In this document: positions 48,332 through 57,981 of the stretch, one piece after another
How the letters are laid out: every line of letters begins with the position of its first letter
How positions within the stretch are numbered: position 1 is the stretch's first letter
DNA from: Candidatus Gastranaerophilales bacterium
Lineage (GTDB): Bacteria > Cyanobacteriota > Vampirovibrionia > Gastranaerophilales > Gastranaerophilaceae
DNA length: 64,000 nucleotides
Direction of reading: 5' to 3'
Assembly (NCBI GenBank): GCA_944325515.1
Contig: CALVAO010000001.1
Coordinates: forward strand, 124,001-188,000
Program-made: the position numbers and the translations under genes
Notes under the pieces: model-generated
Database searches by the model: none
What the model was told of the DNA's origin: nothing
The model's input: only the letters and a program-made list of their open reading frames with translations

Positions 48332-48433
48332 AAACTCTCCTTGGTTAAAAGACTCTTAACTTACTTATTATAACATATTTGAGCCAAATATAACAGAGAG
48401 AAAATAAATAACAGGTTTTGAAACAAAAAAAAT

Positions 48434-48451
48434 AACCGGTAAAAACCGGTT
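48434..48451 (-). terminator. Terminator of the 48575 gene
   Basis: On the minus strand AACCGG-N6-CCGGTT is followed by ATTTTTTTTG. Confidence 0.65.
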
Positions 48452-48574
48452 TATATGTTCTTCCCAAATATTTAACTTTTAATAAATACCCCAAATTAAA
48501 AATAATTGGAACCAAATTTTAACAGAACTTCATAATATTTATGAACTAAGAAATGTTGCGTAATAATTTAATAT

Positions 48575-49255
48575 TTAACACTTGTAGCGTTTTGATTTTA
48601 AATTCATAAATTGTCTTAGCTTAGAGAGGTTTTTAAAATTTTTAAATGCTACAAAATTTTCGGCTTCTTCATATATATATTTCACGGCTTCATCCATTAA
48701 ATCATTTTCTATTAACTTATTTTTAATAGCTTCCATGTTAGGGTTACAAGTAAAATTACCCACAGAACTAGTATTAAATAAGCCGTGAAATTCATTATAA
48801 AGATTTACTTTGTTAGTACCATTTAAATTTTCAACCATTGAACACAGTACATCAAAAAGTATTGAATTGTTAATACCATCTATTTTTTCTTTTACCCTAG
48901 AATCATTAATACAATGCTTTTCAGTAAATTTTTGTACCATATCTCTATTTAAAAGCCTCTCTTCTATAGTAGGAGCACCACTCCACCTTCCAGTCTTAGC
49001 TAACATATCTAATACAGGTATGTACATTGTAATTGCTAGCTCTTGTAAATCATTAATAGTTTCTTTCGCTTTTTGTAACTCTAGCCCGTCTTTGGTAACT
49101 TTAAGCACATTTAAGTTAGATATTAATTCTTTTATTTGTTTATGAAACAAAATTGCAGTTATTAAAAATACAAAAGACCAGTGTTTTAATAAATCTACAA
49201 AGATAAAAAATGCCATAGAAAATATTTGTTGTATTGAATGAAAAACTGGTTCCAT
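48575..49255 (-). CDS. Membrane-anchored protein of accessory cluster
   Basis: 226 residues. One strong membrane segment at about 22-40 (HWSFVFLITAILF) is followed by KQIKELISNLNVLKVTKDGLEL and a long cytosolic helical domain. No known family. It is divergent from the 49413 operon, with palindromes between them, so the two units may be controlled together. Possibly a membrane effector or sensor. Confidence 0.6.
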   Translation of the reverse strand: MEPVFHSIQQIFSMAFFIFVDLLKHWSFVFLITAILFHKQIKELISNLNVLKVTKDGLELQKAKETINDLQELAITMYIPVLDMLAKTGRWSGAPTIEERLLNRDMVQKFTEKHCINDSRVKEKIDGINNSILFDVLCSMVENLNGTNKVNLYNEFHGLFNTSSVGNFTCNPNMEAIKNKLIENDLMDEAVKYIYEEAENFVAFKNFKNLSKLRQFMNLKSKRYKC

Positions 49256-49300
49256 ACTCCTCCTTTTTTTAGTATTGTATCATAATTAATATAGCATATC

Positions 49301-49388
49301 CTTAGAATTTCTAAGAATTTTAAAAAATTAAAATATTATTAATTTAGTCATTGTTTCTATAAAGCTTTGCTATACTTTTCTTAGAAAA
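49301..49388. promoter_or_regulatory. Two related palindromes in the divergent promoter
   Basis: CTTAGAA-T-TTCTAAG (49301-49315) and TTTTC-TTA-GAAAA (49376-49388) share CTTAGAA. The second directly follows TATACT (49371-49376), a likely -10 of the plus-strand operon. Confidence 0.4.
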
Positions 49389-49412
49389 CATGTTGAATAA
49401 GGGGTAAATGCA

Positions 49413-50000
49413 ATGAATACAGTAAATTTTACATTAGAAGAAAAAGAAAAATACATTGATAAACTTTTACTTTTTTTCAAAGAAGAGATTGAAAATGTAG
49501 GTTCTAAGATTGACCAAATTTGGTTTAATTTTCATACTAAATGTGCATCTTGGGATGAAGAAGATGGCGAAGATTTTATAAAGTTTAAAGAAATATCTTC
49601 TTTGTCAAACGCTGAGATAAATAAAATTATAAATATATGTATTTCAAATGAATATTTGTCTGGCAGACCGCATAGGTTGCAATTAACAAGGCAAGGGTAT
49701 GCAAGAGCTAATTCTGTAGAGAAAGCAAAACTATATAAACCTAATGAGTCTAATGCGAATTTTAATTTTCATGGAACAGTTAATCTTAATAACTCTCAAA
49801 TAGGTAATAACAATCAATTACAAATACATATTGTAAATGATTTAGAAAATTTACTTAAATATATCGAAAACTCATCAGCTACGACTGATGAAAAAAAAGA
49901 AGCTAAGAATTTGTTATTGGCATTTATGAAGCATCCGCTTATTACTAATACAGTTGGTAAAGTTCTTGACCTTTTAATAAAATCACACTTTGGAGGCTAA
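49413..50000 (+). CDS. Winged-helix-like protein with SQIGNNN motif
   Basis: 195 residues. The N-terminal half resembles a winged helix (INICISNEYLSG, RLQLTRQGYARA). The centre has NFNFHGTVNLNNSQIGNNN, a short beta motif that I associate with proteins of bacterial conflict loci. A helical C-terminus follows. AGGGG precedes the ATG. First of three genes ending with an AlbA_2 protein. Function unknown. Confidence 0.6.
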   Translation: MNTVNFTLEEKEKYIDKLLLFFKEEIENVGSKIDQIWFNFHTKCASWDEEDGEDFIKFKEISSLSNAEINKIINICISNEYLSGRPHRLQLTRQGYARANSVEKAKLYKPNESNANFNFHGTVNLNNSQIGNNNQLQIHIVNDLENLLKYIENSSATTDEKKEAKNLLLAFMKHPLITNTVGKVLDLLIKSHFGG

Positions 50001-50001
50001 T

Positions 50002-50253
50002 ATGAAAAAGATGGATAAGACAACTAGCATCAATCTTGAATGTGTTTTTTGTAATTCTTTGGAGTTTGAATTACCGTATGAAGGATATGTGCCTTATGAA
50101 GGAGAAATGATAAAGTGCTCAAACTGCGGTAAACTAAATGATTATTCTTCAATAAAAGAAGTGGCAATCGAAGCAGGGACAAAAGAACTCACACAATATG
50201 CACATGCTGAAATAGAAAAAGAATTAAAAAAAATGTTAAAAAAATTTAAATAG
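50002..50253 (+). CDS. Small zinc-ribbon protein
   Basis: 83 residues. CVFCNSLEFEL and IKCSNCGKLNDY give a CxxC-CxxC zinc ribbon at about 15-50, followed by a charged helix. The ATG 1 nt after the preceding stop is chosen because TTTGGAGG sits 5 nt before it. Likely an accessory nucleic-acid or protein-binding factor. Confidence 0.7.
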   Translation: MKKMDKTTSINLECVFCNSLEFELPYEGYVPYEGEMIKCSNCGKLNDYSSIKEVAIEAGTKELTQYAHAEIEKELKKMLKKFK

Positions 50254-50262
50254 TGGGTTATT

Positions 50263-51414
50263 ATGCTTTGGGATAAATTATCAGCATCTGTGGAAAATGA
50301 TTACATTGATTTTAAGCGGGATTGGTACACTAAAGATAAGCTTGGTGAAGTTAATTTAGTACATGATATTTTGTGCATGAGTAACTCTTTATCAGACAGT
50401 GCAGATAGATATATCGTAATAGGCGTTGAAGTTGATAAAACTAATGGTTTAAAGCATATAACTGACGTCTTAAAAGATGTTAATAATCGTCAAAGTGCTG
50501 ATTTAATACAAACATTACGAAATTATATGTCAGTTATTCCAAATATTGAATTAATCAGAGAACAAACCGATTGCGGTTTTATTGATATTATAAAAATTAT
50601 GCCAGTTGCTAGGGAATTGCCGTATGTTTTGAATAAAGAGTGCCAAGCACAGAAACCTGATGGCAAAAAAGTTACAGTTAGGAAAGAATGGATATATTCA
50701 CGAAATTCAGATAGAAATACTCCCAAAGATGAGTGTTGCACAAAAGCAGAATTAGAAGAATTATTTGCACGCAAGCGGGGAGAACATCTTCCTGTATTAG
50801 AAAGGTTCTCAATGTATCTTGATGATATCCATAATTGGAAACATCCGAAAAGTGAATATGAAATAGCCGAAAGCGAAACCGCATATTACTACTCTCTGAA
50901 TCATAAATTTAAAATTGTAAGAAGTAATAGGGATTTAGACAAAACAATATCACTATCACTTGCTAATTCTTATGATGAACTTCTTACTGATACATGTATA
51001 GGTGTAGATTATTGGAATTATCGCAATACGCAAAATTATTGCTACGATGACAGTATCAATTTATTCAATGTAGAACTATGGGCTGATAATACGCTTATAG
51101 AAGTTTTTAATATTACAGAAATATTTATTAAGCATTTTAATTACGATAGGTATTATGGTTCTTACTATGTGCCTAATCGAATGCATTTGATTGAAAGTAA
51201 CATAGCTATTAACAATATTAGCGACATAGAAAAACTACTAGTTTGGAAAATATGTAAACTACTTTTTCATTTTAACTTATATGATGGCTGTAATTTAGTT
51301 ACAGACGATGCTTCAAGAATATTAGAAATATTAAACTATGACTATTTGCAAAATCCGAGAGAATATCGTAAACGAAATGAAGATTGGCTTTATCAACCAA
51401 TTAAAATTAAATAG
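50263..51414 (+). CDS. AlbA_2 (Schlafen-type) domain protein
   Basis: 383 residues. SVENDYIDFKRDWYTK near 9-24 carries the E...DFK motif of AlbA_2 domains, followed by VHDILCMSNSL and DRYIVIGVEV, as in Schlafen-like nucleic-acid-binding or nuclease proteins. The C-terminal 200 residues match nothing I know. It lies 9 nt after the zinc-ribbon gene, in one operon. A defence role is plausible but unproven. Confidence 0.7.
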   Translation: MLWDKLSASVENDYIDFKRDWYTKDKLGEVNLVHDILCMSNSLSDSADRYIVIGVEVDKTNGLKHITDVLKDVNNRQSADLIQTLRNYMSVIPNIELIREQTDCGFIDIIKIMPVARELPYVLNKECQAQKPDGKKVTVRKEWIYSRNSDRNTPKDECCTKAELEELFARKRGEHLPVLERFSMYLDDIHNWKHPKSEYEIAESETAYYYSLNHKFKIVRSNRDLDKTISLSLANSYDELLTDTCIGVDYWNYRNTQNYCYDDSINLFNVELWADNTLIEVFNITEIFIKHFNYDRYYGSYYVPNRMHLIESNIAINNISDIEKLLVWKICKLLFHFNLYDGCNLVTDDASRILEILNYDYLQNPREYRKRNEDWLYQPIKIK

Positions 51415-51437
51415 TAGTAATATAAAAATATAATAAA

Positions 51438-52982
51438 TTATTTAATGAAATAATATTCTTTTTTCTGTACTCTATTCCAATATTCCGCCTGCGGAACTTC
51501 TTTGAATTTGTAAATTTTTCTATTAACTCCAAGGGTATTTGTATAAGTATAATAACCATCAAAAACTATAACCATACCTTCTCTTAACCATTCATCGTCA
51601 ACGAATTGTCTTTTTGTTGCTACAAAAACAGTTCTTGGATTTGATAATCTTGTCACATCTGTTGTTAATAATACTCCACCCGAAACTGACTGAAGAACCT
51701 TTGCCCCTGCCTGTGATGTGATTATATAAATTCCATTCTTCTGTGGTTGTTTTGCCGTTTGCCATCCCCAAAGAATTTCACGAAAATCCATGTTGTCAAT
51801 AAAATAAGGTGTTGTAACTTTAGGTGCAGATTGCTTTTGTTTCGTTTCGTAGGCAACACTATAATCTTTAATTTCTTTAGCCATTGCCGTCCAAGTATTA
51901 ATAGAGTGTTTTCTACTCTCAATTTCATTTATAAAATAATTGCTATTTTCAACTTTTGCCGAAGTGATATAATTAAATACTTCTTTTTCGGATGCTGAAT
52001 TATCTAATTCTCCGTAGGAAACTAAAATATTTTTAACCGTTTCAATTTCCCATTTATTTAATTCTTTATACTGGCTAATAAATGTATTAATTCCATCGTA
52101 TAAGTTCTTATTAAATTTCATATTGTTCTTATTTGATTTAAATTCTAAATAAGGCTTTTGAAGTTTTTGAATATCTTCTTCAGCGATTTCTTTATTAGTC
52201 ATGCCATTTGTACGGTCATAATCAGGATTAAAAGTATTGAAGTATTCTGCTAAAACTTTTTCTTTTGGATTATCTTGAGAAAAAGCAAGCATAGCCTTGC
52301 TTAAAACCCAGCCTTTTTCGGCTTTCTTTACCTCATTTGCATAATAACTTTGAGGGGTTAATCTATAATTTTTCACATTATTGTTTTGCAAATCTGTAAC
52401 TTCCAGCTCCAGTTTTTTATTATTTAGCAACTTTTCGCATTCCGCAACAGTTAACTCTTTTGTTGATTTGTTGTTTATTTTTAGAATTATTGTATTCTTT
52501 TGTATTCCTGCAATTTCAGCAGGCGAACCTTTTTCTACGCTAGTTATTATTAAAGGCATATTTAAGTCTAAGTCGTATTTATAAATACCCAACCCCACCC
52601 CTTTTGTTTTAGGGACATATTTTATAATATTTGAAAAACCTTCTTCATTGGCAAGTGTTAATCTAACAGCGTTTTGATTATAAATGTTTTGTATTGGAGA
52701 GATAAATAATTCTATTCGTGTACGGTTGTTTAGCAATTCCAAACAATCTTGGTTGGTTAAGTCTTTAGTTATCTTTCCATCAATGCTTATAATATACCAA
52801 TTTAACGGAATATTTGCTTTTTCAGCAGGTGAATTAGGCTGAATACTTCTTATCTGTAAAGGTGCAAAAAGGTTTTCCACTCCACCTTTTCTTATCGCCT
52901 CAATTCCTAAACCACATTCTTGAGCATTTGCGATATTTGAAATAATCAGAAAAATAAAGCTAGTTAAAATAAATTTTTTCAT
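51438..52982 (-). CDS. Exported protein with two PDZ domains
   Basis: 514 residues. The signal peptide is about 1-20 (ILTSFIFLIISNIANA). PDZ-like units occur at about 25-105 (SIQPNSPAEKANIPLN) and 125-200 (SVEKGSPAEIAGIQKN), each followed by a CLELL/CEKLL helix. The rest has no protease motif. The ATG after GGGGG is chosen. The C-terminal 100 residues may form a beta domain (KNGIYIITSQAG). Divergent from 53090. Confidence 0.75.
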   Translation of the reverse strand: MKKFILTSFIFLIISNIANAQECGLGIEAIRKGGVENLFAPLQIRSIQPNSPAEKANIPLNWYIISIDGKITKDLTNQDCLELLNNRTRIELFISPIQNIYNQNAVRLTLANEEGFSNIIKYVPKTKGVGLGIYKYDLDLNMPLIITSVEKGSPAEIAGIQKNTIILKINNKSTKELTVAECEKLLNNKKLELEVTDLQNNNVKNYRLTPQSYYANEVKKAEKGWVLSKAMLAFSQDNPKEKVLAEYFNTFNPDYDRTNGMTNKEIAEEDIQKLQKPYLEFKSNKNNMKFNKNLYDGINTFISQYKELNKWEIETVKNILVSYGELDNSASEKEVFNYITSAKVENSNYFINEIESRKHSINTWTAMAKEIKDYSVAYETKQKQSAPKVTTPYFIDNMDFREILWGWQTAKQPQKNGIYIITSQAGAKVLQSVSGGVLLTTDVTRLSNPRTVFVATKRQFVDDEWLREGMVIVFDGYYTYTNTLGVNRKIYKFKEVPQAEYWNRVQKKEYYFIK

Positions 52983-53010
52983 TAAACCCCCATATTGCAT
53001 ATCCACATGT

Positions 53011-53059
53011 TACAAATTTAAACTGTATTGTCAAGCTAAAACTACATTTTAAATTTGTA
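53011..53059. promoter_or_regulatory. Shared operator, copy 1
   Basis: TACAAATTTAAA (53011-53022) and TTTAAATTTGTA (53048-53059) are perfect 12-bp inverted arms. The right side (53031-53059) matches 54578-54606 at 24 of 29 positions. It lies between the PDZ gene and the 53090 gene. Confidence 0.6.
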
Positions 53060-53089
53060 TTTATAACTAAAGTAGTGTAATATATTAGT

Positions 53090-53464
53090 ATGACTTATTC
53101 ATTAGAAGATTTTACAAATTATATCAGTAGTAAGACTTGGAAAAATGCAAAGACTTTTGAAAACTTTGCTCCGCATGAATACATTTTAAGTTTTCCTTGT
53201 GAAAAAACAAAAACTGAGGGGAAATGCACAAATAACTGCGACATCTGCAAAGCTGAACGAAAGGCCTTTGAGGATGCTGTTATATTTATTCGACAAAACG
53301 GCGAACGAGCAAAATTTCAAAAACGCATTTACACAATGCTTTGTATCGAAGATTATCAATACTGGACGATGGGAGACCCGCTTGAAACTACTTGGGTACT
53401 TAATAAAGCTTTAATTAATGACCCTCGCTGTAAAGTAAAAACATACTGGCTTGATAGAGCCTAA
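53090..53464 (+). CDS. Small Cys-containing protein, unknown
   Basis: 124 residues. CEKTKTEGKCTNNCDICK could bind zinc, and the end has YQYWTMGDPLETTWVLNKA, a pattern I have a vague sense of from small proteins near restriction genes, without a name. There is no ribosome site; TAATAT lies 6 nt before ATG, suggesting a leaderless mRNA. It overlaps the nuclease gene tail to tail by 4 bp. Confidence 0.6.
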   Translation: MTYSLEDFTNYISSKTWKNAKTFENFAPHEYILSFPCEKTKTEGKCTNNCDICKAERKAFEDAVIFIRQNGERAKFQKRIYTMLCIEDYQYWTMGDPLETTWVLNKALINDPRCKVKTYWLDRA

Positions 53465-54495
53465 AGAAGGTCAATATACTCTTTTGCTTGTTTTATCAAG
53501 TCATCAACCATTTCAAACTCATTTGTATTGCGTTTGGGATAAAGTGGTACAATCAGCATATCTGACTTATCAGATTTTTCAATTATGAATTTTTTGCCCT
53601 TATCATCCAAGTTGTAACGGAGTTTTGGTGAATATGCAACCCAATTATTGTTTTCATCAATAGTTTTAAATGTCATCCAAAATGGAGTTGTTTTTCCGCA
53701 AATCCCTTTTTGCCATAAATTACAACTAAATTGAATGCTTAAGCCAGTCGAAGGATTATCTATTCTTAAGTAGCGACAGTACCCACCTTTTTGTGGAGTG
53801 GCTTTAACACCTTTTGAATTACAAATTTTATGAATTAAAAGACTATCAGCAATTTTGTCAACAATTCTGTAGTAATCTACGATGCGATTTGCCATGTTAG
53901 AGCTTAAATCACCTGCTGAAAACGGCTTAAAATTCTGATTATCCATTTCTCCTGTAAGCCCTTTTAACTGCAGCAAATCATTATATAAAATATCTTCCTG
54001 TAAAACATTATCAAGCAGATTAAGGACTTCTTCCCATGATAAAACGAGCATTGGAGGCTTGCCTTCTTTTAGCAATAATCTGCCTTGTGGTTTTTCGTAT
54101 TCTGCGGAAGCTGCAAGTTCATCAACGAGCGATATAATTCTTGATTTAGGGCATACAAATATAAGTCCTTTCCCACCCTTTTTCTCCAAGCGTTCAAGGT
54201 AGGTATTTGGTTGATTATCAGTTAAATTTGCCCAAAACTTCATCTCAAAAATAAGGATTTCATCATTATGCGTATTCCTTAAAGACATATCAGGTCTTTC
54301 AAGATTTTCTCCGCATGATTGAAGCTCAAAATGTAAATCTTTTTCAAACGGGAGACCTAATTCAGTTCCGATATAGTCCAATAAAGTATCACGAGCAGTT
54401 GTCGAATTTTGTAGGATATAATGCAGACTCATTGTTGCAATATCTTCAGTTGATGTTCCAACACTATTAGCAATATGACACAATAATAAACTCAT
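53461..54495 (-). CDS. PD-(D/E)XK nuclease-like protein
   Basis: 344 residues. ERPDMS near 67 and ILIFEMKFWA near 83, with NQPNTYLERL after, give the PD...ExK core and following helix of the PD-(D/E)XK fold. The C-terminal half (TPFWMTFKTIDENNNW) is unfamiliar. It is divergent from an XRE regulator with an operator in between. No methyltransferase is nearby, so it is not a standard restriction system. Confidence 0.7.
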   Translation of the reverse strand: MSLLLCHIANSVGTSTEDIATMSLHYILQNSTTARDTLLDYIGTELGLPFEKDLHFELQSCGENLERPDMSLRNTHNDEILIFEMKFWANLTDNQPNTYLERLEKKGGKGLIFVCPKSRIISLVDELAASAEYEKPQGRLLLKEGKPPMLVLSWEEVLNLLDNVLQEDILYNDLLQLKGLTGEMDNQNFKPFSAGDLSSNMANRIVDYYRIVDKIADSLLIHKICNSKGVKATPQKGGYCRYLRIDNPSTGLSIQFSCNLWQKGICGKTTPFWMTFKTIDENNNWVAYSPKLRYNLDDKGKKFIIEKSDKSDMLIVPLYPKRNTNEFEMVDDLIKQAKEYIDLL

Positions 54496-54540
54496 TGCGT
54501 TCTCCTTTCAAGTTCAACTGTAAAAATAACTAAAATCTCT

Positions 54541-54606
54541 AATTCAAAATGATTATATCTCAACTGAAACAATTTAATCAAGCCAAAACTCCATTTTGAA
54601 TTTATG
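54541..54606. promoter_or_regulatory. Shared operator, copy 2
   Basis: AATTCAAAATG (54541-54551) and CATTTTGAATT (54592-54602) are perfect inverted arms. 54578-54606 matches copy 1 at 24 of 29 positions. Located between the nuclease and XRE genes. Confidence 0.6.
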
Positions 54607-54663
54607 TAAATTAACATTTTAATTTAATACCATGATGTTAATGCTTAAATTGAGGTATTAACA

Positions 54664-54978
54664 GTGGATAACAGAAAATTATTAGGGTTAAGAATAAAAG
54701 AATTACGCAAAAGAGCTTCACTAAGCCAAGAAGTTCTGGCAGAGAAAGCAGGAATTGAACCAACATCACTTAGTAATATTGAGAATGGTAGAAATTTTCC
54801 ATCATTTATTACATTAGAAAATATTATGCGGGTATTGAATGTCGGGTACTTTGATGTATTTCAGTTTGCACAATATGCACCCGCTGATGATTTAATTCAA
54901 GAAATCACAACAATTTTAAAAGATAATCCTGAACGAGTAAAAGATGCTTATAGAATTATAAAAGCTCTTGTTGATTAA
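54664..54978 (+). CDS. XRE-family regulator of the nuclease module
   Basis: 104 residues, GTG start after GAGG. HTH at about 10-65 (RIKELRKRASLSQEVLAEKAG, then TSLSNIENG). The tail APADDLIQEITTILKD resembles that of the 28552 regulator. Being divergent from the nuclease with shared operators, it probably represses its own and neighbouring promoters. Confidence 0.88.
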   Translation: MDNRKLLGLRIKELRKRASLSQEVLAEKAGIEPTSLSNIENGRNFPSFITLENIMRVLNVGYFDVFQFAQYAPADDLIQEITTILKDNPERVKDAYRIIKALVD

Positions 54979-55041
54979 TTTAACGGTGGCTGACGGTGGA
55001 GTTTGTAAAATTTTATTAAAACTTCGAAGAATTATACTTGC

Positions 55042-55089
55042 ATGTATATTTTAACTATGTCAATATAAAAATATACATTAGTGTATAAT
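55042..55089 (+). promoter_or_regulatory. Operator and -10 of the MerR-like gene
   Basis: ATGTATATTTT (55042-55052) and AAAATATACAT (55068-55078) are perfect 11-bp arms with a 15-bp gap. TATAAT follows at 55084-55089. Confidence 0.55.
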
Positions 55090-55107
55090 TTTAAAAAGAG
55101 GTTATTT

Positions 55108-55968
55108 ATGACAAGTTCTAAAAAGCCAAGTTCCATAAGTCAAAAGACATTTTTACAAATTAATTCCCTTTTGGAATTTGATAACATAGTTGAAACTATA
55201 GATTATAAAAAAGTCTTATTAGAAGTTGAAAATATTAATAAACCTCGTTACTATCCGCAACAAATTATTAAATTAATACCCGAAATAACATCACGAAAAT
55301 TAAACGATTGGGATGCTAAGGGATTACTGGTTAAACATCGAGAGAGTAGCAGCGGGTGGCGGTTATTTTCACTTGCAGATGTCGTTCGGTTACGGATTAT
55401 TCAGGATTTAAAAACTTATGGAATGTCTAATATTCAAATACAAAAAGCACTGACTGATATTTTTGAATTAAACGACACGAAACGACAGTATTTATTTGAA
55501 ACATTTTTAAATGTATGTGCGACAACAAGAAAAGTCGTTATTATTGTAGAATTTGAGGGGAGTGCATCTTTATTCCTTGAGGACTCTGCTTATATTAATT
55601 TAAAAATGGATAAAAGCTGTTGTAAACCTGTTTTAATTCTTCCGTTTTACGACTACTGTATGCCGTTTATGCCTCATAAAGAATATAACATGACAGTTAA
55701 TACCTGTGATGTTGTAAACAAGCAAAATAGAGGTAATCTGAGTGCAATAGCGGATTGTTTAATAGATGATGAATGTAAAGAAATTAGTTTAAAGAAAAAT
55801 ATTAATGGTTTACTTATTAAACCTAAAAAATATAACCATAGTATTTCTAAAGAAGATTTTATCAAATACATCGAAAATCTTGATGAAAAAAGTTTTAAAG
55901 AAATAAGAATATCTTTGCAAAATGGAGAAATTAAAACATTAAGCGAAGAAGACTCAATATTGAGCTAA
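55108..55968 (+). CDS. MerR-like transcriptional regulator
   Basis: 286 residues from ATG after GAGG; a GTG 27 nt earlier is less likely because the operator lies there. TSRKLNDWDAKGLLVKHRES and WRLFSLADVVRLRIIQDL form a MerR winged helix near 60-110. The C-terminal part, with VVIIVEF and PVLILPFYDY, is unlike typical effector domains. Probably autoregulated. Confidence 0.7.
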   Translation: MTSSKKPSSISQKTFLQINSLLEFDNIVETIDYKKVLLEVENINKPRYYPQQIIKLIPEITSRKLNDWDAKGLLVKHRESSSGWRLFSLADVVRLRIIQDLKTYGMSNIQIQKALTDIFELNDTKRQYLFETFLNVCATTRKVVIIVEFEGSASLFLEDSAYINLKMDKSCCKPVLILPFYDYCMPFMPHKEYNMTVNTCDVVNKQNRGNLSAIADCLIDDECKEISLKKNINGLLIKPKKYNHSISKEDFIKYIENLDEKSFKEIRISLQNGEIKTLSEEDSILS

Positions 55969-56071
55969 ATTATAACGGAAACCCTCCGAGTAATTTGGCG
56001 GTTATTACAAATATATCTTAAGGCAACGGAAACCATCTGAACCTTAATACAACTGCAAAGGATAGATAACT

Positions 56072-56278
56072 ATGCTTAGTATTAAGGCGTGCCGCAAATG
56101 CCTAAAAAATTATTCAAAAGACCTAACTGACGATGAAATTGAAAATGTTAGGGATTTAATGTACCAATTTGCATTTGTTATGGTAGAAGATTACCTAAAT
56201 AATTGCAAAAATGTTGTGCCGATATCGGCAGAAAGGAAAGAAAATGGAAAATCAAGATTTTATGAAAGATGTATTTAA
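56072..56278 (+). CDS. Small protein upstream of recombinase
   Basis: 68 residues with CRKCLKNYSKDLTDDEIENVRDLM at the start, a helical region, and a basic tail. Weak AAGGAT site. It overlaps the next small gene by 35 bp in another frame. A directionality factor for the recombinase is a guess from position. AACGGAAACC occurs twice just upstream (55974 and 56025). Confidence 0.45.
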   Translation: MLSIKACRKCLKNYSKDLTDDEIENVRDLMYQFAFVMVEDYLNNCKNVVPISAERKENGKSRFYERCI

Positions 56279-56423
56279 TTCACCAAGTATGAGTATGGCA
56301 TCTAAAGAATTGTTAGAAACTATTCAAAATGCGTTTAAACAGTATGAATGGAAAGTTAGAAGTGAACGGATTAAAGCGGGTATTAGAGAGGCAAAATTAA
56401 GAAAGACAAGCAAAGCGGAGTAA
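56244..56423 (+). CDS. Small helical protein before recombinase
   Basis: 59 residues from ATG after AAAGGAAAG. It ends SERIKAGIREAKLRKTSKAE, reminiscent of the arm region of serine recombinases. Located 26 nt before the recombinase ATG. Possibly an accessory factor; unknown. Confidence 0.5.
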   Translation: MENQDFMKDVFNSPSMSMASKELLETIQNAFKQYEWKVRSERIKAGIREAKLRKTSKAE

Positions 56424-56449
56424 AATCCGCTTTTGTGAAAGGAGAAACA

Positions 56450-57946
56450 ATGAGTCAAAATGCTTTAATTTATACAAGAGTATCAACAAAAGAACAAGCT
56501 GAAGGCGGATATAGTTTATCAAACCAAGACAAGGAATGTAAAAAATTCGCAATCGATAATAATTATTCAATTCTTAATGTATATGAAGAACGAGGTGAAA
56601 GTGCAAAAACAACTGATAGAACTGAATTGCAAAAATTGATGAAATACTGTTTCCAAAACAAAAAAGATATAGATGTACTAATTGTATGGAAACTTGATAG
56701 ATTAGCACGTAATATGGAGGATTTTTATTCTCTTACTAATTATTTTAATAAATTAAATATTCGGGTACTTTCTGCAACGGAAGTAAACGGTGAGTCCGCA
56801 ACCGAAAAATTAACTCGGAATATGTTGGGAGCTTTTGCTCAATTTGAAAATGACCAAAAATCTGAAAGAGTAACAGCAGGCATGAAAGAAGCTTTTAAAC
56901 AAGGAAATTGGTTATGGAAAACTCCGAAAGGATATACGAGAAAATTTGGTATGGTTATTCCTGACCCCGAAACCGCTCCGATTATTATTAAAATTTTTGA
57001 AAAATTTTCAACAGGTTTATACCAACAAACACAGCTAATAAAATATGCCGAGAAAAATGGTATTAAGATGCAAGCTTCTACAATGAACCATATGCTAAGG
57101 AACCCATTTTATATCGGTTACATGGTAAAGGGAAAATGGTCGGAAGAACCAATACGAGGAAGTTTCGAACCAATTATATCAGAAAAGATTTTTAACAAAG
57201 TACAAGCTATATTAGACGGCAGAAAACCTATTATATCAAGCTATAAAAGAAATAACCCCGACTATCCTCTTAGGCAGTTCATTACATGTCCGAATTGCAA
57301 CCAACCATTATCAGGCAGTCTATCAAAGGGAAGAAATAAAAAATATCCTTATTACCACTGTTATAATAAAGATTGTTCAATAAACTTCAGAGTACCAGTA
57401 GATAGATTGCATAAAGTATTTGTAGAATATTTGAAAGAAATAAAACCAGCATCCGAATTTCTTGATTTATTTCAATTAACAGTTGAAGATGTTTATAATC
57501 AAAGGACTGAAAATAGGCTAAATAAGTCAAATGAATTAGATAAAAGACTTATTAAATTAAAGGCAACTAAAAGCAAACTAATAGATTATAAGTTAGACGG
57601 CTCTATATCGCAAGCGGATTATATGTTTAAATCAGAGCAATTAAATTCACAAATAAAAGAGGTTGAATATGAACTCTCTACCCTTTCAGATACAGAAGAA
57701 GACCTTACGAAATGTCTAAAATATACTTGTAATGTAGTGGCAAATCTGGACGAAGTATGGCTTAATGGAAGCTTAGAAATAAGACAACGGTTGCAGAGAT
57801 TAATTTTTCCAAAAGGCTTAACTTATGATTTAAGTAATTTTCGAACCGCTGAAATGTCAAGCCTATTCAAAATAATAGGCTCCTTTAAGGAGCCTTCTTA
57901 TAATATGGTACCCCCAAGCGAATTCGAATCGCTGTCTACACCGTGA
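56450..57946 (+). CDS. Large serine recombinase (integrase)
   Basis: 498 residues from ATG after AAAGGAG. The resolvase domain has nucleophile Ser in ALIYTRVSTKEQ, then VWKLDRLARNMED and LGAFAQFENDQKSERV. The recombinase domain (NHMLRNPFYIGYMVKG) and a zinc ribbon (CPNCNQPLSG, CYNKDC) follow, then a coiled coil near 380-440. The last residues, PPSEFESLSTP, are read from the antisense of tRNA-Glu, and the stop lies inside the tRNA. Confidence 0.92.
   Translation: MSQNALIYTRVSTKEQAEGGYSLSNQDKECKKFAIDNNYSILNVYEERGESAKTTDRTELQKLMKYCFQNKKDIDVLIVWKLDRLARNMEDFYSLTNYFNKLNIRVLSATEVNGESATEKLTRNMLGAFAQFENDQKSERVTAGMKEAFKQGNWLWKTPKGYTRKFGMVIPDPETAPIIIKIFEKFSTGLYQQTQLIKYAEKNGIKMQASTMNHMLRNPFYIGYMVKGKWSEEPIRGSFEPIISEKIFNKVQAILDGRKPIISSYKRNNPDYPLRQFITCPNCNQPLSGSLSKGRNKKYPYYHCYNKDCSINFRVPVDRLHKVFVEYLKEIKPASEFLDLFQLTVEDVYNQRTENRLNKSNELDKRLIKLKATKSKLIDYKLDGSISQADYMFKSEQLNSQIKEVEYELSTLSDTEEDLTKCLKYTCNVVANLDEVWLNGSLEIRQRLQRLIFPKGLTYDLSNFRTAEMSSLFKIIGSFKEPSYNMVPPSEFESLSTP
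57860..57895 (-). terminator. tRNA-Glu terminator within recombinase 3-prime end
   Basis: On the minus strand AGGCTCC-TTAAA-GGAGCCT is followed by ATTATTTTG, ending the tRNA transcript. An alternative hairpin, AGCCTATT with AATAGGCT (57860-57881), shares the AGGCT arm, so the two exclude each other. Confidence 0.6.
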
Positions 57947-57981
57947 AAGGGTGTTGTCCTAGGCCTCTAGACGATGGGGGC
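57906..57981 (-). tRNA. tRNA-Glu(TTC)
   Basis: The acceptor GCCCCCA pairs with TGGGGGT (last pair G-U), the anticodon arm is ACACC-CTTTCAC-GGTGT (anticodon TTC) and the T-arm AGCGA-TTCGAAT-TCGCT. Discriminator A and CCA follow in the DNA, unlike tRNA-Ser here, perhaps contributed by the inserted element. The 3-prime end faces the recombinase. Confidence 0.93.

Follow-up and report, generated by a model that had tools for sequence, protein, structure and literature searches.

A putative operator shared by a regulator and exchangeable cargo genes in a tRNA-Glu island of Gastranaerophilales

The window analyzed here is a stretch of 64,000 nucleotides of a Gastranaerophilales genome. An earlier note had singled out four of its genes, which encode a PD-(D/E)XK-type nuclease, a protein with invariant cysteines (Cys), an XRE-family regulator and a PDZ protein. 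These genes are the cargo and the regulator of an island of about 9.5 kb at a tRNA-Glu gene. The open reading frames, their strands and their divergent and convergent layout are as that note described them; the island setting, with its MerR gene and serine recombinase, had been overlooked. The genes and landmarks, in window coordinates, are as follows.

48409-57896, no strand: integrated island, about 9.5 kb, approximate extent, inserted at the 3′ end of tRNA-Glu
50263-51414, plus strand: neighboring cargo, AlbA_2 protein, candidate defense family PDC-S50 (PADLOC, E=6.3e-39)
51438-52982, minus strand: PDZ gene, 514 aa from the MKK start, with a signal-peptide-like N-terminus, two PDZ domains and a C-terminal domain without known family
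53090-53464, plus strand: Cys protein, 124 aa, invariant Cys 37, 46, 50, 53, 85 and 114 (alignment)
53461-54495, minus strand: nuclease of the PD-(D/E)XK type, P68-D69 ... E84-M-K86, Q95
54664-54978, plus strand: XRE-family regulator, 104 aa, GTG start (HTH_31, E=3.8e-13)
55108-55968, plus strand: MerR-like regulator, island backbone (MerR_1, E=2.9e-10)
56438-57946, plus strand: large serine recombinase (Resolvase, E=2.9e-36; Recombinase, E=3e-14), 3′ end overlapping tRNA-Glu
57906-57981, minus strand: tRNA-Glu(TTC), integration site (ARAGORN)

The island ends were defined via the empty site of a relative (G007), where only 174 bp separate the sugar-transferase flank (to window position 48408) from the tRNA flank (from 57897), compared with about 9.5 kb between the sugar-transferase gene and tRNA-Glu in the window. 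The element thus has the recombinase, the tRNA site and the empty counterpart that mark a mobile genomic island; a search for long direct repeats as attachment sites found none. The backbone order of xre, MerR, two small ORFs and recombinase is repeated across related islands with varying recombinase identity, and the MerR-like regulator occurs in 14 of 287 family genomes. The cargo to the left of xre varies. It includes the AlbA_2 protein, which matches the PADLOC family PDC-S50, as well as an HNH-like protein and a DUF4209 protein (PDC-S39); G069 carries a CBASS set of cyclase, E2 and HNH-SAVED effector, and G575 a four-gene set without identification. Candidates of the families PDC-S50, PDC-M14A and PDC-S39 lie within islands, the PDC-M14A match in the window being an 87-aa zinc-ribbon protein at 49990-50253. 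The cyclase, E2-like protein and HNH-SAVED effector of G069 (L017:12225-15219) follow the CBASS type II pattern and directly adjoin the Cys-nuclease pair. G069 also contains, at L137 (C15), a second island with this backbone; its XRE is a different one, and the slot next to that XRE is occupied by a zinc-ribbon protein. A literature search on Gastranaerophilales mobile islands or defense found nothing specific.

The description of the nuclease as lacking a methyltransferase was upheld for the island genes scanned. Its PD-(D/E)XK-type catalytic residues (P68 D69 ... E84 M85 K86) and Q95 are invariant in an alignment of five orthologues; no methyltransferase, the nearby cognate partner that characterizes type II restriction-modification (R-M) systems, was found among the main island ORFs scanned. 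For the core alpha-beta-beta-beta-alpha-beta fold of the superfamily, residues 6-167 of a structural model of middling quality (pLDDT 64.6) gave a match list led by restriction enzymes and including EcoT38I, BspD6I, PaqCI, Shedu and McrBC (best Foldseek E=0.015); the absence of a family from this VIA-align list is no exclusion. The best fold match of the nuclease domain was EcoT38I (Z 7.6, rmsd 4.7, 142 aligned), from which it differs in sharing only 8% identity over the aligned part and in having no methyltransferase partner that we could find. The Pfam family PDDEXK_4, only one family of the superfamily, scored below threshold (E=0.047, 14.1 bits vs a cutoff of 22.3), and a sequence search in the PDB returned nothing. 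The Cys gene lies tail to tail with the nuclease gene with a 4-bp overlap (53461-53464). The Cys protein had no match in family libraries, and its model (pLDDT 48.7) was too poor for use. No PADLOC model of a described anti-phage system matched nuclease or Cys.

The PDZ protein (Pfam PDZ, E=3.8e-14) carries two PDZ domains, and its signal-peptide-like start makes export apparent on inspection, which agrees with the earlier description of an exported double-PDZ protein. Homologues were found in G051 (92%), G201 (53%), G046 (53%) and G041 (41%), as well as in G338 and G575. Elsewhere, the PDZ protein or its lone C-terminal domain adjoins Mu-type transposase/ATPase genes or faces a 90-aa XRE in another recombinase island (L080:3784-5334 in G041, L114:6007-7044 in G126 and L096:6676-7623 in G060). 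The PDZ-type protein would thus be an exported accessory gene in several kinds of mobile element. No relatives of nuclease, Cys or PDZ were found in IMG/VR viral contigs, nor of the nuclease in phage records; therefore, there was no hint of a phage home.

Two similar sequences lie between the divergent genes, next to promoters that we located by sequence inspection.

53007-53034, minus strand: probable PDZ promoter, −35 TTGACA (53034-53029), −10 TAACAT (53012-53007), 16 bp; the −35 element overlaps site 1
53031-53059, no strand: site 1, read as box L of the XRE control region and carried with PDZ, 24/29 to site 2
53055-53083, plus strand: probable Cys promoter, −35 TTGTAT, −10 TAATAT, 17 bp; the −35 element overlaps the right end of site 1
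54530-54554, no strand: degenerate box L′ in the nuclease-XRE region, CTAAAATCTCTAATTCAAAATGATT, aligning to site 1 of the PDZ-XRE islands
54552-54581, minus strand: probable nuclease promoter, −35 TTGATT, −10 TATAAT, 18 bp; the −35 element overlaps site 2
54578-54606, no strand: site 2, read as box R of the XRE control region, in 11/11 islands with XRE 96-99% identical

The coordinates and the 24/29 identity of these 29-bp sequences, both reported in the earlier note, proved correct. Both intergenic regions were resampled 2000 times from a first-order Markov model, and the best of all alignments in any trial matched at no more than 23/29 positions; the next-best 29-mer in the whole window scored 22/29. 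Across the 2.1-Mb genome, a 25-bp core with at most 3 mismatches matched solely these two places, and the reversed control gave 0 matches. The likeness ends at the box and the flanks are unlike, in contrast with a fresh duplication. The perfect inverted arms (TAAAA-N5-TTTTA and CAAAA-N5-TTTTG) that the note had also pointed out are present, but such 5-5-5 palindromes arise by chance in DNA this rich in AT (mean 0.77; at least two in 18% of shuffles), and their outer pair is broken in relatives, as in TAAAA..TTTTC at site 1 of G051 and TAAAA..TTTTG at site 2 of G051, G082 and G284. What is strong is the direct resemblance of the two sites; the palindrome is weak and not conserved. A compensatory change from T:A to C:G between the arms of the two sites was considered and rejected, the pair being broken in relatives. 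Just downstream of site 2 (window 54607-54626), there is a separate perfect palindrome, TAAATTAACATTTTAATTTA, with 7-bp arms and a 6-bp spacer; part of it is altered in G552, G338 and G575.

We compared 12 islands, the window's own (G000) among them. A first survey of 193 relatives gave strong nuclease matches in exactly the five genomes with Cys, each of which also carries a related XRE; G113 gave only a weak, partial match (about 95 residues at 30%). Further searches brought in G201, G284, G302 and G552; the first three hold the nuclease-Cys pair, and the contig of G552 ends inside the nuclease. Wherever the contig reaches, nuclease and Cys genes are invariably paired. The pair occurs with XRE and without PDZ in five islands (G055, G069, G082, G284 and G302), and PDZ occurs with XRE and without the pair in three (G046, whose xre is truncated by the contig end, G338 and G575). 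Together with the window's island, G051 and G201, PDZ is thus present in six islands. Because of this distribution, nuclease and Cys form one unit, PDZ forms another and XRE belongs to the backbone.

The earlier note had proposed that the XRE protein governs all four genes as one functional, co-inherited module. All four genes, with both sites, are indeed found together in G000, G051 and G201, that is, in 3 of the 12 islands and in 3 of the 11 whose XRE is nearly identical. Against the module, the promoter that belongs to Cys lacks the site in five islands, and PDZ directly adjoins xre without nuclease and Cys in three. The four genes do not travel as a unit, co-inheritance is already contradicted by these layouts, and we regard the four-gene module as very unlikely.

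The placement of the boxes is more informative. A box of the site 1 type adjoins PDZ in 6 of 6 PDZ islands and stands before Cys in 0 of 5 islands without PDZ (the five named above), although the islands are kin and these are therefore not independent counts. Judged by these arrangements, site 1 goes with PDZ and not with Cys. PDZ is directly divergent from xre in G046, G338 and G575, where one intergenic region holds both boxes, the site 1 type next to PDZ and the site 2 type next to xre, with a start-to-start spacing of 58 bp, or a little less if the boxes are taken to begin elsewhere. Within these islands, boxes L and R match at 15-16 of 22 positions, which taken alone is not beyond chance. 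The nuclease-XRE region of the window aligns with this PDZ-xre region. Because three islands hold both boxes together, sites 1 and 2 are best read as two boxes of one XRE control region that now lie apart around the nuclease-Cys pair. The nuclease-Cys pair may have been inserted into the simple layout or lost from the composite one. In the composite islands, site 1 resembles box R more closely in its right half than it does in the PDZ-XRE islands, in keeping with a possible fusion through recombination at the box. The distant island G606 has a different XRE, again divergent from a PDZ protein and followed by MerR and recombinase.

The regulator itself resembles R-M controller (C) proteins. It is a short XRE-fold protein related to C proteins, matches PADLOC R-M control-protein models from E=1.2e-9, and has SinR, C.BclI and C.Csp231I among its relatives, the last two among solved structures (C.BclI at E=9.4e-9 with a profile). 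C proteins bind a palindromic operator pair upstream of their own gene; here two boxes lie upstream of xre, and their palindrome is weak. Site 2 shows some base changes among the 11 islands, e.g., in G302, and is only partly kept in G069 and G114. The XREs of these two genomes are 62% identical and have the same recognition helix, and there AAAATGATT, the deeply conserved part of box L′ (at 54546), and TTTATG are conserved better than the site 2 core; therefore, the true contacts may differ from the 29-mer. AAAATGATT lies about 116-120 bp before xre and at nearly equal distance in G069 and G114. Upstream of 26 XRE homologues, no convincing shared motif emerged apart from words resembling ribosome-binding sites and stretches that close subgroups have in common. 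Members of the 104-aa XRE family are numerous in Gastranaerophilales, with 22 places in the window's genome, and are often divergent from an unrelated gene, such as a glycosyltransferase, acyltransferase or prepilin-like gene (L081-L095). Long inverted repeats accompany some of these XRE genes, such as AATTAAAATCATTTTTCA-ATG-TGAAAAATGATTTTAATT upstream of the one in L091.

A different account of the two sites holds that their likeness reflects common descent of promoter DNA, through cassette fusion by recombination at a shared stretch, or simply two back-to-back sigma-70 −35 elements, and that XRE binds elsewhere, e.g., at AAAATGATT. The −35 hexamers do account for the letters TCAA and TTGA at the outer ends, no block is better kept across diverged XREs than AAAATGATT, and site 1 of the composite islands has a box L-like left half and a box R-like right half, as after recombination between boxes. 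However, both sites conserve the core AAAACTNCATTTT although it is not part of the −35 hexamers, and no third copy exists anywhere in the genome; we consider this account unlikely. The cargo raises another question, independent of the sites, as nuclease and Cys might be a toxin-antitoxin-like pair that stabilizes the island and not an anti-phage system. Their strict pairing, the small partner, the mobile island and the distant likeness of XRE to antitoxin regulators such as Y4mF/HipB speak for such a pair. Tail-to-tail genes with separate promoters, as found here, are unusual for toxin-antitoxin pairs, and the surroundings are defense genes, so that we think this role possible but doubtful.

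Overall, we favor with moderate confidence a prediction from sequence that xre, the nuclease and PDZ are under common XRE control; any control of Cys is incidental, by position. The two sites would be operator copies of the island's XRE regulator. The simple layout of G046, G338 and G575 has xre and PDZ divergent, with L next to the PDZ −35 (the promoter reads TTGACT-N16-TAATAT in these islands) and R next to xre. In the window's island the nuclease-Cys pair lies between them, with PDZ retaining site 1, xre retaining site 2 and the predicted nuclease promoter directed leftward out of the xre region. Since the promoters of PDZ, Cys and the nuclease have their predicted −35 hexamers at box edges, bound XRE should interfere with them. 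An XRE dimer at each box could cover the back-to-back −35 elements and repress xre, nuclease and PDZ together; repression is the presumed direction, although XRE might, in the manner of C proteins, activate at one of the boxes.

Because related islands hold CBASS and candidate defense genes, we view the nuclease as defense cargo, probably a restriction-type enzyme that defends the island or the host, with Cys as its likely obligate partner and PDZ as a putative exported accessory ("moron") protein. The ensemble reads as repressor-controlled defense or conversion cargo and suggests exchangeable cargo genes under one island regulator via a common putative operator. We speculate, tentatively and with more doubt than confidence, that the island is a plug-in platform in which cassettes bring a copy of the island repressor's operator, or fuse at one, and thereby join its regulon, and that nuclease-Cys is an undescribed, methylation-free two-gene defense system. 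The result bears on the question of how integrated islands control newly acquired defense genes without harm to the host. Across the rearrangements seen in six islands, the same box accompanies the regulator and a single cargo gene, a natural layout series suited to asking whether operators move with cargo. The analysis also brings to attention an uncharacterized nuclease-Cys pair without an adjacent methyltransferase.

Among the closest known systems, R-M controllers of the class of C.Csp231I and C.EcoO109I resemble this island in having a small XRE-fold regulator adjoining a restriction-type nuclease gene. C.Csp231I binds CTAAG-N5-CTTAG at two 15-bp sites 18 bp apart (PMC4321490), and its 5-bp arms, 5-bp spacer and two boxes in one control region (PMC4321490) recur here, a resemblance and not proof. 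Unlike these controllers, the island has no methyltransferase found adjacent, its box reads CAAAA-N5-TTTTG, its palindrome is not conserved, its boxes lie 58 bp apart from start to start in the PDZ-XRE islands, and a second box precedes an unrelated gene at a distance of 1.5 kb. RptR, a small repressor of a phage defense island promoter in enteropathogenic E. coli (PMC12255303), likewise places a single small repressor over a defense island promoter. However, RptR binds repeated TAGCTA within a single promoter of its Type I R-M island, whereas two separate divergent promoters of a serine-recombinase island are involved here. The "moron" genes of temperate phages and satellites are similar in that an exported accessory protein adjoins the element's repressor, and PDZ or its C-terminal domain recurs both in a further recombinase island and beside Mu-type transposition genes. 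In contrast to such genes, PDZ is accompanied by a second box of the repressor's type, at a distance from the repressor gene itself.
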